Origin: Mycetocola spongiae
GTDB lineage: Bacteria > Actinomycetota > Actinomycetes > Actinomycetales > Microbacteriaceae
DNA: 64,000 nucleotides
NCBI RefSeq assembly: GCF_020424085.1
Contig: NZ_CP080203.1
Location: forward strand, 3,132,755 to 3,196,754
Direction: 5' to 3'
Positions 9,321 through 58,816 of the stretch are shown here, piece by piece (position 1 is the first letter of the stretch; each line of letters begins with the position of its first letter). Below the pieces are notes generated by a model. That model made no database searches and had not been told where the DNA came from. It saw nothing but the letters and a program-made list of their open reading frames with translations. Made by a program: the position numbers and the translations under genes.

Positions 9321-9393
9321 GCACCTCTAGCTCAATCGGCAGAGCAACTGACTCTTAATCAGTGGGTTCTCGGTTCAAGTCCGAGGGGGTGCA
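9321..9393 (+). tRNA. tRNA-Lys (anticodon CTT), copy 1
   Basis: 73 nt. Acceptor GCACCTC pairs with GGGGTGC, anticodon stem ACTGA/TCAGT, loop CTCTTAA with anticodon CTT, T-loop GGTTCAAGTCC. No CCA is encoded (the next bases are CCG). Identical in sequence to the copies at 9428 and 28721. Confidence 0.97.
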
Positions 9394-9427
9394 CCGCGTG
9401 CCTCGGCCGCGCATAACTGAATAATTT

Positions 9428-9500
9428 GCACCTCTAGCTCAATCGGCAGAGCAACTGACTCTTAATCAGTGGGTTCTCGGTTCAAGTCCGAGGGGGTGCA
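9428..9500 (+). tRNA. tRNA-Lys (anticodon CTT), copy 2
   Basis: Identical 73-nt copy, 34 bases after the first. This copy is followed by a genomic CCA (9501-9503) and then by a strong terminator, so the two genes are likely transcribed together. Confidence 0.97.
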
Positions 9501-9505
9501 CCAAC

Positions 9506-28720: not shown

Positions 28721-28793
28721 GCACCTCTAGCTCAATCGGCAGAGCAACTGACTCTTAATCAGTGGGTTCTCGGTTCAAGTCCGAGGGGGTGCA
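28721..28793 (+). tRNA. tRNA-Lys (anticodon CTT), copy 3
   Basis: Identical over all 73 nt to the two copies at 9321 and 9428. No CCA is encoded. It has its own terminator. Confidence 0.97.
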
Positions 28794-28801
28794 CTCGTAA
28801 G

Positions 28802-54404: not shown

Positions 54405-55039
54405 ACGCTCAGGGTATCTCCCGCGATTAGCGCAAAATACTCGCCGCCGCCGGCGCGGGTGACCTCGCCCAGGCGCTGATCCGCGAACCCGCGGCCAATC
54501 GCGGACAGTACGGCGTCGTGTGTGGGAAAAACCCGACGCGGACCCACGGCGGTCACAAAATCCATCGCCTCCGAGATTTTCAGCCACGGCGCACCCGCCG
54601 GTGCGGCCAGGATGTCCACCGCAATTCCCTCGGGAACGGCGAAACTATCTCCCGGATAATACAGGCGCTCATTCACCCACACACCCACGTTATCGATCAC
54701 CGGGATGCTGGGATGAATCACGGCATGGGAGCCGCCAAAAAACCGCAGGTTAAACGCCCCCACCGAGACGGACTCGCCCGCGGATACGGCCTCAACCGGG
54801 AAATCCGCCGCCGCCGCGACCAGGCCCGCCGGGCCAAAAAAGCGCGCCCGCGGCGAGTGCTCACGGACCCGATCCAGCTGCTCGGCGCTCCAGTGATCGG
54901 GATGCTCATGGGTAATCACCACGGCCGTGATCCCGTGGGCATCGGCGAGAGGCTCCTCGAAGGAACCGGGATCGATGAGGAGGCGTTCGCCGGCCTCCTC
55001 GATCAGCAGCGAGGCATGGGTGCGCTTCAAAATATCCAT
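54401..55039 (-). CDS. MBL-fold metal-dependent hydrolase (UlaG-like)
   Basis: 212 residues from the ATG at 55039. The metal-binding motif THEHPDHW (HxHxDH, about residues 46-53), FFGGSHAVIHPSIPVIDNVG, and YYPGDSF with the bridging Asp support an active metallo-beta-lactamase fold. The family hydrolyses phosphoesters or lactones; substrate unknown. Convergent with the PfkB kinase with overlapping stops, and divergent from the lipid-kinase-like gene 67 bases away. Confidence 0.87.
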   Translation of the reverse strand: MDILKRTHASLLIEEAGERLLIDPGSFEEPLADAHGITAVVITHEHPDHWSAEQLDRVREHSPRARFFGPAGLVAAAADFPVEAVSAGESVSVGAFNLRFFGGSHAVIHPSIPVIDNVGVWVNERLYYPGDSFAVPEGIAVDILAAPAGAPWLKISEAMDFVTAVGPRRVFPTHDAVLSAIGRGFADQRLGEVTRAGGGEYFALIAGDTLSV

Positions 55040-55094
55040 GCCCCCAGCAAAACCTATTTCCCCGAGACACGCACGTAAAACCCACCCCTCCTGC

Positions 55095-55100
55095 GATACT
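55095..55100 (+). promoter_or_regulatory. -10 element of a leaderless-type promoter
   Basis: GATACT ends exactly 6 bases before the ATG at 55107. No ribosome binding site is seen. Confidence 0.5.
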
Positions 55101-55106
55101 GGCGAC

Positions 55107-56033
55107 ATGAACGCACCGTCGCGCCGACTCCTCGTCGCCATCAACCCCACCTCCGGCGTGGGCCGCGGCGGGGGAGTGGCCGCCGAGGCCCTCGCCGAAC
55201 TGCGCGCCGCCGGACACGATATACGGCCCGTGAGCGCCGCGGGAGCCGCGGAGCTGGCCCGTGACCTCACCAACACCCTCCGGGGCGCGGGAGGATGGGC
55301 CCCCGAGGCGCTGATCGTGATCGGGGGCGACGGCATGATCTCGCTTGCGCTGAATGTGCTCGCCGATCCCCAAATCGACCCCCATCTGCCGCTCGGCCTC
55401 ATCCCCAGCGGAACCGGAAACGACTTCGCGCGCGGCCTGGGCCTCAACCCCCGCCGCCCCGGCGAAGCCGTGCAGCGGATACTGGACGCACTCGCCCACG
55501 GCCCGCGCATCCTCGACCTCGGCGAACTGCGCTGGGCCGGGGGCCACAGGCGCTTCGCCGGCGCCGCCAACCTCGGCTTTGACGCACTGGTCAACGCGCG
55601 CGCAAACCGCTGGCGGCATCCCCGCGGCAGCCTGCGCTATGTCCTCGCGATGCTGCGCGAACTCCTCAACCTGCGGCCCCGGGAATACCTGCTCACCGTG
55701 GACGGCCGGGAACACACCCTCTCCGCACTGATCCTCACCGTGGCCAATAACGGCAGCATCGGCGGAGGAATGCGGATCGTACCCGGGGCACTCCTCGACG
55801 ACGGCATCCTGCACCTATTCTCCGTGAGCCCCGGCAACAGGCTCCGCTTCCTCCTGCTCTTCCCGCGGGTATTCCGCGGAACGCATACGGGACTCAAAAA
55901 CGTGAGCATCGGCGACCTGCGCGAGATCCACATCAGCGGCGGAGACATCCTCGCCTATGCCGACGGAGAGGCGGTTGCGGTCCCGCCGCTGAGCATTCGA
56001 GTGCTGCCCGGCGCGCTCCACATGCTGATCTAA
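55107..56033 (+). CDS. Diacylglycerol/lipid kinase family protein (YegS/DgkB-like)
   Basis: 308 residues. LLVAINPTSGVGRG (about residues 8-21) opens the fold, IGGDGMISLALN (about 72-83) holds the nucleotide-binding GGDG, and IPSGTGNDFARGLGL (about 100-114) is the GTGNDFAR motif of lipid kinases. The C-terminal half binds the lipid. Phosphorylates diacylglycerol or a related lipid at the membrane. Starts as a leaderless-type gene. Confidence 0.92.
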   Translation: MNAPSRRLLVAINPTSGVGRGGGVAAEALAELRAAGHDIRPVSAAGAAELARDLTNTLRGAGGWAPEALIVIGGDGMISLALNVLADPQIDPHLPLGLIPSGTGNDFARGLGLNPRRPGEAVQRILDALAHGPRILDLGELRWAGGHRRFAGAANLGFDALVNARANRWRHPRGSLRYVLAMLRELLNLRPREYLLTVDGREHTLSALILTVANNGSIGGGMRIVPGALLDDGILHLFSVSPGNRLRFLLLFPRVFRGTHTGLKNVSIGDLREIHISGGDILAYADGEAVAVPPLSIRVLPGALHMLI

Positions 56034-56048
56034 GGGGATCAACCACCC

Positions 56049-56082
56049 CGCCCGACACGCCGAAAATACGGCGTGTCGGGCG
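56049..56082 (+). terminator. Hairpin after the lipid kinase gene
   Basis: CGCCCGACACGCCG pairs perfectly with CGGCGTGTCGGGCG around a 6-base loop. Only a short T tract follows. Confidence 0.75.
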
Positions 56083-56087
56083 TCGAT

Positions 56088-56117
56088 TTGTACTCACGAA
56101 AAAAGACATGGCATACT
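56088..56117 (+). promoter_or_regulatory. Promoter of tRNA-Glu copy 1
   Basis: TTGTAC (56088-56093), an 18-base spacer, then CATACT (56112-56117) within TGGCATACT. The -10 is exactly 15 bases before the tRNA. The same ATGGCATACT or ATGCCATAAT element, at the same 15-base distance and followed by ACGTTGTTCA, precedes the other two intact tRNA-Glu genes (56886-56891 and 57357-57362). Confidence 0.65.
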
Positions 56118-56132
56118 CATAAACGTTGTTCA

Positions 56133-56205
56133 GGTCCCATCGTTTAGCGGCCTAGGACACCGCCCTCTCACGGCGGCAGCACGGGTTCAAATCCCGTTGG
56201 GATCA
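56133..56205 (+). tRNA. tRNA-Glu (anticodon CTC), copy 1
   Basis: 73 nt. Acceptor GGTCCCA pairs with TGGGATC, D-arm GTTTAGCGGCCTAGGAC, anticodon stem CCGCC/GGCGG with loop CTCTCAC, T-arm ACGGGTTCAAATCCCGT. Genomic CCA at 56206-56208. Own promoter and terminator. Confidence 0.97.
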
Positions 56206-56211
56206 CCAACT

Positions 56212-56247
56212 ACACCCCCTCATCTTGATGAGGGGGTGTGTTTTTTT
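56212..56247 (+). terminator. Terminator of tRNA-Glu copy 1
   Basis: ACACCCCCTCAT pairs with ATGAGGGGGTGT around CTTG, then G and seven T. The same hairpin with a GAAA loop is reused after the degenerate units. Confidence 0.95.
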
Positions 56248-56252
56248 AGCAG

Positions 56253-56327
56253 GGTCAACTGTGGGACACCGCACTGTGTTGATTATTTGGCACGGCGGCA
56301 GCACGGGTTCACATCCCGATGGGATCA
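56253..56327 (+). pseudogene. tRNA-Glu-derived degenerate unit 1
   Basis: 75 nt. Keeps GGTC at the 5' end, GGGACACCGC, and everything from GGCGGCAGC through the T-arm (TTCACAT loop) to GGGATCA. The D-arm is replaced by AACTGT and the anticodon loop by ACTGTGTTGATTATTTGGCA. No CTC anticodon and no promoter. Followed by its own terminator copy (56333-56368). Confidence 0.85.
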
Positions 56328-56373
56328 CAACTACACCCCCTCATGAAAATGAGGGGGTGTGTTTTTTTAGCAG

Positions 56374-56448
56374 GGTCAACTGTGGGACACCGCACTGTGT
56401 TGATTATCTGGCACGGCGGCAGCACGGGTTCAAATCCCGTTGGGATCA
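56374..56448 (+). pseudogene. tRNA-Glu-derived degenerate unit 2
   Basis: 75 nt, nearly identical to unit 1; the T-arm and acceptor 3' strand are identical to the real tRNA (TTCAAAT loop, CCCGTTGGGATCA). Terminator copy at 56454-56488. Confidence 0.85.
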
Positions 56449-56493
56449 CAACTACACCCCCTCATGAAAATGAGGGGGTGTGTTTTTTAACAG

Positions 56494-56567
56494 GGTCAGC
56501 TGTGGGACACCGCACTGTGTATATTTTTGGCACGTTGGCAGCACGGGGTCGAATCCCGTTGGGATCA
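56494..56567 (+). pseudogene. tRNA-Glu-derived degenerate unit 3
   Basis: 74 nt. The variant inserted block ends GTATATTTTTGGCA instead of GTTGATTATYTGGCA. It has CACGTTGGC in the anticodon-stem 3' strand and GGGGTCGAATC in the T-arm. Followed by a genomic CCA and a terminator copy (56574-56608). Confidence 0.82.
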
Positions 56568-56613
56568 CCAACTACACCCCCTCATGAAAATGAGGGGGTG
56601 TGTTTTTTAACAG

Positions 56614-56688
56614 GGTCAACTGTGGGACACCGCACTGTGTTGATTATCTGGCACGGCGGCAGCACGGGTTCACATCCCGTTGGGATCA
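56614..56688 (+). pseudogene. tRNA-Glu-derived degenerate unit 4
   Basis: 75 nt, like unit 2 but with the TTCACAT T-loop of unit 1. Its terminator (56695-56730) has one mismatch (GAAGGGG). Confidence 0.84.
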
Positions 56689-56735
56689 CCAACTACACCC
56701 CCTCATGAAAATGAAGGGGTGTGTTTTTTTGACAT

Positions 56736-56778
56736 AGTCGGCTGTGGGACGCCGCGCCGCGCATATTGGCGCGGCGGG
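56736..56778 (+). pseudogene. tRNA-Glu-derived unit 5, strongly decayed
   Basis: Only AGTCGGCTGTGGGAC and a G/C-altered version of the next block (GCCGCGCCGCGCATATTGGC) align to the other units; the T-arm and terminator are lost. Followed by about 125 bases of unrelated-looking sequence before tRNA-Glu copy 2. Confidence 0.6.
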
Positions 56779-56906
56779 CTGACGAACCCACGGGTCAGCG
56801 CTCATCCGACTTCCGGCAGCCCCACCCGGAAACCCCCGCGCCACCCATGCGACACGGGGTGGTCACGAAGGCAAAAAAACTATGCCATAATTGAACACGT
56901 TGTTCA

Positions 56907-56979
56907 GGTCCCATCGTTTAGCGGCCTAGGACACCGCCCTCTCACGGCGGCAGCACGGGTTCAAATCCCGTTGGGATCA
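56907..56979 (+). tRNA. tRNA-Glu (anticodon CTC), copy 2
   Basis: Identical to copy 1 over 73 nt, with genomic CCA at 56980-56982. A -10-like CATAAT (56886-56891) lies 15 bases upstream. Confidence 0.97.
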
Positions 56980-56985
56980 CCAACC

Positions 56986-57018
56986 ACACCCCCTCATGAA
57001 AATGAGGGGGTGTTTTTT
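56986..57018 (+). terminator. Terminator of tRNA-Glu copy 2
   Basis: ACACCCCCTCAT with GAAA loop and ATGAGGGGGTGT, then six T. Confidence 0.94.
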
Positions 57019-57026
57019 CTTAATAT

Positions 57027-57100
57027 GGTCAGCTCTGCGACACCGCCCTGTGTATATTTTTGGCACGGCGGCAGCACGGGTTCAAATCCCGCTGGGATCA
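57027..57100 (+). pseudogene. tRNA-Glu-derived degenerate unit 6
   Basis: 74 nt with the GTATATTTTTGGCA type of inserted block, as in unit 3, and GACACCGCCCTGTG, one base closer to the true tRNA than the others. T-arm intact; CCCGCTGGGATCA at the 3' end with CCA following. Terminator copy at 57107-57139 (mismatched). Confidence 0.82.
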
Positions 57101-57147
57101 CCAACGACACCCCTCATGAAAACGAGAGGGTGTTTTTTTCTTAATAT

Positions 57148-57199
57148 GGTCGGCTGTGGGACACCGCACTGTGTATATTTTTGGCACGGCGGCAGCACA
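57148..57199 (+). pseudogene. tRNA-Glu-derived unit 7, truncated
   Basis: Begins GGTCGGCTGTGGGACACC, carries the GTATATTTTTGGCA block and GGCGGCAGCAC, then breaks off; the T-arm, acceptor and terminator are missing. Confidence 0.75.
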
Positions 57200-57377
57200 G
57201 ACCCACCGTCCCAGGTGGCCATTGGCCACGAGGGTCGGGGACCCGGCCAGCACCCGAACCGGCGCAACTCGGCCTCCCTAAGAACCCCGGAAAACGACGA
57301 CCCGAACCGACGCGCCCGGCCCGCGCACGCGGTTCGGCGGCTCCCCGGTTTTATGGCATACTTAAACACGTTGTTCA

Positions 57378-57450
57378 GGTCCCATCGTTTAGCGGCCTAG
57401 GACACCGCCCTCTCACGGCGGCAGCACGGGTTCAAATCCCGTTGGGATCA
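57378..57450 (+). tRNA. tRNA-Glu (anticodon CTC), copy 3
   Basis: Identical to copies 1 and 2, with genomic CCA (57451-57453). A -10-like CATACT (57357-57362) lies 15 bases upstream. Confidence 0.97.
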
Positions 57451-57456
57451 CCAACC

Positions 57457-57491
57457 ACACCCCCTCATCCTGATGAGGGGGTGTGCTTTTT
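57457..57491 (+). terminator. Terminator of tRNA-Glu copy 3
   Basis: ACACCCCCTCAT, loop CCTG, ATGAGGGGGTGT, then GCTTTT. Confidence 0.9.
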
Positions 57492-57492
57492 A

Positions 57493-57792
57493 GACACCGC
57501 ACTGTGTTGATATTTGGCACGGCGGCAACACGGGTTCACCCCCGTGGATCTCCAGGTACGTTCCCTCATCTTGATGAGGGGGTGTGCTTCTCGACACCGC
57601 ACTGTGTTGATATTTGGTACGGCGGCAACACGGGTTCACCCCCGTGGATCTCCAGGTATGTTCCCTCATCTTGATGAGGGGGTGTGTTTTGGGGCACCGC
57701 ACTGTGTTGATATTTGGCACGGCGGCAACACGGGTTCACCCCCGTGGATCTCCAGGTGCGTTCCCTCATCTTGATGAGGGGGTGTGCTTCTC
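57493..57792 (+). repeat. Three exact-period 100-bp tRNA-derived repeats
   Basis: Units start at 57493, 57593 and 57693, each GACACCGCACTGTGTTGATA, then GGCGGCAACACGGGTTCACC, CCCGTGGATCTCCAGGT and a hairpin CCCTCATCTTGATGAGGG. Compared with the 121-bp family they lack the 5' GGTC block and the acceptor strand, and the T-arm is changed to a perfect CACGGG/CCCGTG stem. The hairpin has lost its ACAC/GTGT base and most of the T run. Units differ from each other at only a few positions. Confidence 0.85.
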
Positions 57793-57865
57793 GACACCGC
57801 ACTGTGTTGATTTTTGGCACGGCGGGCTATACCTGGCACGGCCACCGCACGGGTTCCACTCCCGC
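57793..57865 (+). repeat. Decayed end of the tRNA-derived array
   Basis: Starts like the 100-bp units (GACACCGCACTGTGTTGATT), then repeats TGGCACGGC twice and ends in a T-arm remnant ACGGGTTCCACTCCCG at about 57849-57864. This is about 75 bases before the next gene. Confidence 0.6.
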
Positions 57866-57940
57866 ACCGAATATCGTGGCAAATCCCCTCCGTCCGCGGG
57901 GAGGTTGTCCCCCTGCGCAGAATTCTCGGAAGGTTCAACG

Positions 57941-58816
57941 ATGAGCGTGCCCCCGGCAAAGCGTTCCGGCTCCATCGGCGCGGTGGGCCTTGTCCTGATC
58001 GGGCTCGCCTGTCAGGACGTCGGCGCGGCCTTCGCCGTACTCGTCTTCCCGCAGGTCGGTGCCGTCGGAATGGTGGCCCTGCGCATCGTCTTCTCCGCAC
58101 TCGTCCTCCTGCTGATCGCCCGCCCCCGCCTCCGCGGACACTCCCGCGCCGACTGGTATACGGTCCTGGCCTTTGCGCTGGCCCTCGTCGGAATGAACAC
58201 CCTGTTTTATCTCTCGATCGGCCTCATCCCCCTCGGCACCGCCGTGGCCATCGAGGTACTGGGCCCACTAATCCTCGCCGTGGTAACCGGCACCGCCCGC
58301 TCACGATGGATCTGGGCCGCCCTGGCCCTCGTGGGCATCCTCCTGCTCGGCCGCAGCGGGCTTGGCACCCTGGACCCCGTGGGAGTGGCCCTCGCGGCCG
58401 GCGCCGGCGTAATGTGGGCCGCCTATATCCTCACGTCCTCACGCACCGGGGCACGCTTCCCCGGGCTCGACGGGCTCGCCCTCGCGATGGGCATCGGCGC
58501 GATCATCATCCTGCCCTTTGGCATCTTCCTCTCCGGCGGCGCAATCTTCCGTCCGGAAATCCTCGGCCTGGGCTTTATCGTGGCATTTATGTCCTCCACG
58601 CTGCCCTATACGCTGGAACTCATCGCGCTGCGCCGCCTGCCCACCACCACGTTCTCGATGCTGCTCTCGCTGGGCCCCGTCGTGGCCGCCGCGGCGGGAT
58701 TCATCGTGCTTGGTCAGGTCCTCGGCTGGCTCGAATTACTCGCGATCGTGCTGGTGGTCATCGCCAGCGCCGGGGCCGTCTACTCCTCGCGCACACGCCC
58801 CGACCTGACCCCCTAA
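57941..58816 (+). CDS. EamA/DMT-family transporter (RhtA-like exporter)
   Basis: 291 residues from the ATG at 57941 (GGAAGG upstream). Ten predicted membrane helices made of two EamA halves; the second half includes LGFIVAFMSSTLPYTLELIALRRLP, close to the RhtA type that exports threonine, homoserine or similar amino acids. Frames that extend upstream into the tRNA-derived array are artefacts of the repeats. The nearest upstream element is the decayed array end. Confidence 0.88.
   Translation: MSVPPAKRSGSIGAVGLVLIGLACQDVGAAFAVLVFPQVGAVGMVALRIVFSALVLLLIARPRLRGHSRADWYTVLAFALALVGMNTLFYLSIGLIPLGTAVAIEVLGPLILAVVTGTARSRWIWAALALVGILLLGRSGLGTLDPVGVALAAGAGVMWAAYILTSSRTGARFPGLDGLALAMGIGAIIILPFGIFLSGGAIFRPEILGLGFIVAFMSSTLPYTLELIALRRLPTTTFSMLLSLGPVVAAAAGFIVLGQVLGWLELLAIVLVVIASAGAVYSSRTRPDLTP

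Follow-up and report, generated by a model that had tools for sequence, protein, structure and literature searches.

The tRNA-Glu locus

The window considered here is a stretch of 64,000 nucleotides from the genome of Mycetocola spongiae. Between positions 56,133 and 57,865 it carries three tRNA-Glu(CTC) genes, the same at 76 of 76 nt (three 100% matches), and behind each gene a sub-array (A, B, and C, in that order) of derived units, built in their complete form from a leader, a short non-tRNA block, the 3' half of the tRNA, and a terminator or its remains. An earlier note, made from the letters of the sequence, had described three identical genes with their terminators, and ARAGORN, Rfam, and a terminator scan bear this out. 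The features are collected in Table 1.

Table 1. Features of the tRNA-Glu locus of M. spongiae, in window coordinates
Feature	Position	Strand	Description	Source
tRNA-Glu(CTC) gene 1	56133..56208	+		ARAGORN; Rfam RF00005, 55.9 bits
First repeat, natural register	56169..56290	+	duplicated segment, made up of the 3' half of tRNA gene 1, terminator, and block	
Terminator of tRNA-Glu 1	56211..56240	+	intrinsic; 13-bp stem, CTTG loop, T7	terminator scan
Unit A1	56249..56369	+	leader, block, tRNA 3' half, terminator	
Unit A2	56370..56488	+		
Unit A3	56489..56608	+	tRNA 3' end identical at 19/19 nt	
Unit A4	56609..56730	+	one broken pair in terminator stem	
Partial unit A5	56731..56778	+	leader and block (hairpin in its GC-rich version); tRNA 3' half and terminator absent	
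tRNA-Glu(CTC) gene 2	56907..56982	+		ARAGORN; Rfam
Terminator of tRNA-Glu 2	56986..57013	+	intrinsic; 12-bp stem, GAAA loop	terminator scan
Unit B1	57021..57140	+	terminator stem damaged: two substitutions, one deletion	
Partial unit B2	57141..57198	+	leader, block, first 14 nt of tRNA 3' half	
tRNA-Glu(CTC) gene 3	57378..57453	+		ARAGORN; Rfam
Terminator of tRNA-Glu 3	57456..57485	+	intrinsic; 13-bp stem, CCTG loop	terminator scan
Unit C1	57493..57592	+	100 nt; T-loop shortened, hairpin without T-run	
Unit C2	57593..57692	+		
Unit C3	57693..57792	+		
Partial unit C4	57793..57826	+	block only	
Relic of tRNA 3' half	57830..57864	+	diverged, after C4; repeat family D3, 83% to reference copy	

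Eight derived units are complete, five of about 121 bp (A1-A4 and B1) and three of 100 bp (C1-C3), and A5, B2, and C4 are partial. Tandem Repeats Finder reports arrays with a period of 121 bp at 56169-56755 and 56943-57198 and one with a period of 100 bp at 57462-57825, with 91-92% matches. The seven units of 120/121 bp counted in the earlier note therefore include two partial ones, and their spacing ranges from 118 to 122 bp; its three to four 100-bp units agree with what is found. Its statement that the units keep the T-arm, the 3' acceptor strand, and (in the 121-bp family) a terminator holds only in part. A5 has neither the tRNA half nor a terminator, B2 has 14 nt of the half, and in the C units the T-loop is shortened, the acceptor strand is damaged, and the hairpin is not followed by a T-run. 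Within the 121-bp family, the terminator is intact after A1-A3, but its stem is damaged in A4 and B1.

Only the three tRNA-Glu genes score as tRNA; no derived unit does so with ARAGORN or, even at E<=1, with RF00005. What the units share is the block: the pattern CACCGCNCTGTGT-N(4-12)-TGGNACGG has nine occurrences in the window and none in 100 shuffled versions. The hairpin in the block of A5 (window 56750-56777) is GC-rich, with CCGCGC/GCGCGG where other blocks have CTGTGT/GCACGG. Open reading frames of at least 90 codons over the array are, judged by eye and with no family search made, translations of the repeats in shifting frames.

Tandem repeats are prone to misassembly, and this species is represented by a single genome, so one might suspect that the array was produced by the assembler. 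The copies, however, differ in period and by private substitutions, and the genome is a single contig of 3,196,754 bases with completeness of 100 and contamination of 0.27. To judge from the assembly, an artefact appears very improbable.

The duplicated segment

The array is most easily understood in its natural register, in which each copy runs from CACGGCGG of the anticodon stem up to the last base ahead of the next occurrence of that motif. Each sub-array then opens with a real tRNA gene's own 3' half, with its terminator and a block, and in sub-array A the next copies begin at 56291, 56412, 56531, and 56652. From motif to motif, A and B copies measure 118-122 bp and C copies 100 bp, except that the C copy headed by the tRNA gene measures 104 bp. 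The tRNA-headed copy is identical to the copy after it at 93% of positions in A, 91% in B, and 82% in C. At the other end, the sub-arrays stop with CGCGGCGGGCTGAC (A), CACGGCGGCAGCACAGA (B), and CACGGCGGGCTATA (C), that is, with a block that lacks the full tRNA half, as expected if tandem duplication took a segment that starts within the gene and ends somewhere in the flanking sequence. It is because the block sits inside the duplicated segment that every derived copy has one. Of the origins offered in the earlier note, "duplications of one damaged gene" comes closest, except that the segment duplicated was the back half of an intact gene together with its terminator and flank.

The leader and T-tract are also much alike inside a sub-array, as expected of local expansion. 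Sub-array A has TTAGCAGGGTCA in copies 1 and 2, TTAACAGGGTCA in the next two, and TTGACATAGTCG in the last, while both B copies have TTAATATGGTC. In C, the tail of the hairpin is followed directly by the block.

Distribution of the units

In each of three congeners (G001-G003) there is a triplet of tRNA-Glu(CTC) genes, spaced 154-155 and 195-201 bp apart, and there are no derived units. When 3.5-kb stretches from these genomes were searched with the 40-nt tRNA half, permitting up to 14 substitutions, exactly three copies were found in each. Among 299 family genomes, with the best three candidate regions scored per genome, tRNA-Glu matches listed number eight in M. spongiae, four in each congener, and zero to three in each of the other 295. 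A 64-nt query made of leader and block, with at most two candidates scored per genome among the matches listed, found in 398 family genomes only the genome it came from and one 25-base match (in G190), and in 396 genomes of the order (a sample that overlaps the first) only its own genome. The match in G190 lies in what appears by eye to be coding sequence and was set aside as chance. The exact block pattern was also absent from genome_contigs and viral_contigs, collections in which the genome of M. spongiae itself may not be included. The triplet of tRNA-Glu genes is common to the members of the genus sampled, and the derived units are, as far as these samples go, specific to one lineage. The variable loop has an A in all three tRNA-Glu genes here and a G in all three of each of G001, G002, and G003, a difference across all copies that is a sign of concerted evolution among them.

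Within the genome the array also stands alone. ARAGORN detects 57 tRNA genes in the window plus 36 fetched stretches. In six of them the last 18 nt recur within 700 nt downstream (with at most three mismatches), and in four cases what recurs belongs to another tRNA gene. Only tRNA-Glu(CTC) 1 and 2 have a copy outside tRNA genes; tRNA-Glu(CTC) 3 drops out, since decay has gone further in the C units (11 of 19 nt).

Integrases commonly target the 3' halves of tRNA genes, and the part repeated here begins in the anticodon arm. The units might therefore be scars of attachment sites or a small mobile element directed at the tRNA 3' half. Such an element should have left copies at unrelated loci, but outside the array the genome offers only a match to tRNA-Glu(TTC), and the space between copies is too small for a linked integrase or transposase gene (the longer reading frames being the translated repeats described above). 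The phage and plasmid matches listed fall only on the part of the query from tRNA 2 to tRNA 3, on tRNA genes, and none of the records (38 phage and 150 plasmid) covers 80% of the query. A mobile origin thus has very little to recommend it.

Tandem tRNA-Glu pairs of other genera (L045-L049) each have two copies of the tRNA half, no more. In three of these family genomes the gap between the genes contains repeats of its own (L045 512-574, L047 436-831, L046 446-835), the genes lying 460-712 bp apart from start to start. The repeats include a GTTGGCTCGAGGGAGCNTGCGACCGAA element, which in L047 ends in an inverted AGCCAAC; the gap in L046 has three 160-nt copies at a spacing of 115 bp. Repeats seem to arise readily in the spacer between tandem tRNA-Glu genes.

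Terminators, variation, and RNA structure

The terminators intact after the three tRNA genes and after A1-A3 make six of one type, all on the strand of the array, and the starts of C2 (57591) and C4 (57791) also score as terminator-like. Perhaps the units are kept as a stack of terminators, halting read-through from one tRNA gene into the next or into the EamA gene downstream. In that event one would not expect damaged stems in A4 and B1 or hairpins without a T-run in C, nor congeners that do without any such stack. Intact terminators number four after tRNA 1 and one each after tRNA 2 and tRNA 3, a distribution that drift fits better. A role of this kind is unlikely.

A second possibility is that the units are genes of small RNAs, transcribed by read-through of terminators from the tRNA promoters in the manner of RrA, RrB, and RrF of E. 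coli. According to one account, read-through of a first terminator yields transcripts of the rrA, rrB, and rrF repeats, which are situated behind rRNA operons with a terminator on either side; the repeats are conserved across Enterobacteriales, and their RNAs interact with Hfq and CsrA, with no clear phenotype described (PMC8144298). A1-A3 are similarly placed, each between successive intact terminators. A scan for promoters from 56000 to 58000 found none, but this says little, since the three real tRNA genes must have promoters and these were missed as well.

If the units specified functional RNAs, then selection might be visible in the pattern of substitutions. Over the four inner A and B copies, variable columns number 6 of 37 in the tRNA half, 1 of 5 in the spacer, 4 of 29 in the terminator, 5 of 23 in the leader, and 5 of 25 in the block, 21 of 119 altogether, and are spread evenly over these segments (chi-square p = 0.95). 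The tRNA-derived part of A1-A3 and B1 folds no better than shuffled sequence (z -0.44 to +0.10), and the folds are unlike one another. The earlier note had proposed folding and covariation analysis of the aligned units as a check. Covariation does not rise above that of shuffles, the value for the terminator being equalled by 106 of 500 and that for the block hairpin by 52 of 500, and a conserved RNA structure was rejected on this basis. Rfam at E<=1 gives 24 matches between 56000 and 58000, which are the three tRNAs and 21 matches to unrelated families, all of the latter below gathering scores.

Several observations weigh against the view that the array is neutral. When the last A copy is added to the inner four, the segments do differ (p = 0.048, driven by the block of A5), and over all seven A and B copies the tRNA half is less variable than the rest, 6 of 37 columns as against 32 of 82 (Fisher p = 0.019). 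Since two of the seven copies are working genes, we read the latter result as gene conversion with those genes, but selection may have had the same effect. In the single-fold test, made on six of the eight complete units (all but A4 and C2), the tRNA-derived parts of C1 and C3 fold at z -1.35 and -0.78. Taken alone, the block hairpin of A1 outdoes most shuffles (z -1.87, 11 of 200), and the same is true of a different hairpin at the beginning of C2 (z -1.60, 15 of 200). The test is itself weak, as the real tRNA-Glu reaches only z -1.70. The proportion of paired cells is 96.9% for the terminator and 98.1% for the block hairpin (53 of 54 cells, from nine distinct block sequences), whereas slid versions never exceed 73.6% and 68.5%. 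In the C hairpins, every substitution of the 5' arm preserves pairing within the 13-pair stem, a weak hint only, because the arm is nearly all A and C and any transition stays paired. The hairpin of A5 has one pair changed on both sides, U-A to C-G. As to the origin of the block, its matches point two ways: the block of A1 matches the tRNA 5' half at 11 of 12 nt (GGACACCGCNCT; equalled by 16 of 5000 shuffles), and 8 nt of block match the leader of a congener's tRNA (equalled by 155 of 5000). Finally, there is just the one genome from which to judge the species.

Some of these points, the well-formed block hairpin and the less variable tRNA half, are what small RNA genes would predict. Nevertheless, the tRNA-derived parts have no common fold, covariation is no greater than in shuffles, variation over the inner copies is even, and the unit appears in no other genome sampled, so that we regard small RNA genes as unlikely. 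In the earlier note, absence of copies outside this strain and evenly spread substitutions had been named as signs of passive decay. The first is seen in 397 other family genomes, apart from the 25-base match, and in 395 other genomes of the order, and the second in the inner copies; the lower variation of the tRNA half over all seven copies speaks the other way.

Probable formation and decay of the array

We consider it probable that the locus consists of tandem arrays headed by the three tRNA-Glu(CTC) genes, whose copies would be by-products, for the most part untranscribed, of slippage or unequal crossing-over in this lineage. The segment duplicated would be the gene's own 3' half, the terminator, and a short flanking block. 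In the first duplication, CACGGCGG of the anticodon stem may have been joined to a similar stretch in the block downstream. Later rounds could have made use of the homology of about 40 bp then available, so that variants of leader and T-tract stay much alike inside any one sub-array. Exchange with the real tRNA-Glu genes may keep renewing the tRNA part of A and B, while the C sub-array would have been left to decay. Recombination between direct repeats is the most likely means by which the array turns over. Since the units lie behind terminators and lack a recognizable promoter, only read-through transcripts are expected from them, and most units are probably silent.

Transcripts from leaky terminators might still matter. 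One can picture a battery of small RNAs made of tRNA tails, produced by read-through from the growth-controlled promoters of tRNA-Glu. If this were true, RNAs bearing a T-arm and 3' end could act as decoys for enzymes that handle tRNA or as base-pairing RNAs, and their dosage would be set by the number of repeats. We hold this to be a long shot.

Neighboring genes and other tRNA clusters

A gene encoding an EamA transporter lies downstream of the tRNA-Glu genes here and in G003 and G002, and in G001 a match to EamA falls on the contig of the tRNA genes, next to them. Upstream of the cluster, M. spongiae has a YegS/diacylglycerol-kinase-like gene (window 54927-56033), but G003 has a different reading frame (L034 257-1207), carbohydrate-kinase-like by eye. 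With the upstream gene different and the downstream gene in common, there may possibly be a rearrangement breakpoint beside the tRNA cluster.

The window also contains three tRNA-Lys(CTT) genes that agree in body sequence: a tandem pair (9321-9395 and 9428-9503) and, 19 kb away, a third with no encoded CCA (28721-28794). Elsewhere, at G000:C1:479821-480113 and 488302-488598 (L123 and L124), there are two clusters of three tRNA genes, about 8.5 kb apart, with pairwise equal Rfam scores, which suggests that a tRNA cluster was duplicated.

Comparison with known repeats

The units resemble the tRNA pseudogenes of tandem tRNA arrays in having lost the D-arm and anticodon loop and kept the T-arm, and the 11-of-12-nt match of the A1 block to the tRNA 5' half is a further likeness. 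They differ in that the register of the repeat starts in an intact gene and includes a terminator and flank. Nor are they simply whole genes that decayed, because the 5' acceptor strand is not kept. RtT RNA (Rfam RF00391) is not among the eight matches to the window at gathering scores nor among the 24 at E<=1 mentioned above, a search that had no positive control. No report of the Mycetocola array was found in the literature, most subscription papers being outside the reach of the search.

The earlier note treated a regular array with a shared non-tRNA block as unfamiliar. The array itself is real, but it is of a known kind: such arrays have been described in E. coli since 1978, as tRNA-linked repeats (TLRs). 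E. coli K-12 has 22 of them, distributed over ten loci with one to five at each, and every one has 18-19 bp in common with the 3' end of the tRNA or rRNA gene upstream; they were largely without known function before the rr small RNAs, and an early functional claim for the tyrT-tyrV repeats (rttR) was retracted (PMC8144298). In E. coli MG1655, the last 19 nt of the tRNA-Tyr gene tyrV recur exactly at +160, +338, and +516, at a spacing of 178 bp.

The likeness is that, in both organisms, the units lie downstream of a tRNA gene (in E. coli, or an rRNA gene) and bear its 3' end; all three sub-arrays of M. spongiae begin in the 3' half of a tRNA-Glu gene. The differences are of three kinds. The part shared with the gene is 18-19 bp in E. 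coli but up to 40 nt here, from the anticodon stem on. The Mycetocola units carry, or once carried, an intrinsic terminator of their own, placed after the tRNA part and within the unit. Also, there are three sub-arrays interleaved with three tRNA genes. Compared with the last 19 nt of the tRNA, A3 is identical at 19 positions, A4 at 18 (contiguous), A2 and B1 at 18 (with an inner mismatch), A1 at 16, and C1-C3 at 11. Since strict identity over 18-19 bp is present in only two of the eight complete units (A3 and A4), the array is better called a TLR-like variant than a plain member. Most likely it is lineage-specific, probably neutral, and TLR-like. As such, it appears to be an independent instance of tRNA-linked repeats, this time in an actinobacterium. 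Because the congeners have the gene triplet but no units and the sub-arrays seem to have decayed to different degrees, the locus gives an idea of how repeats of this kind arise and are lost. It also suggests that an array downstream of a tRNA gene may in some cases exist without any function.

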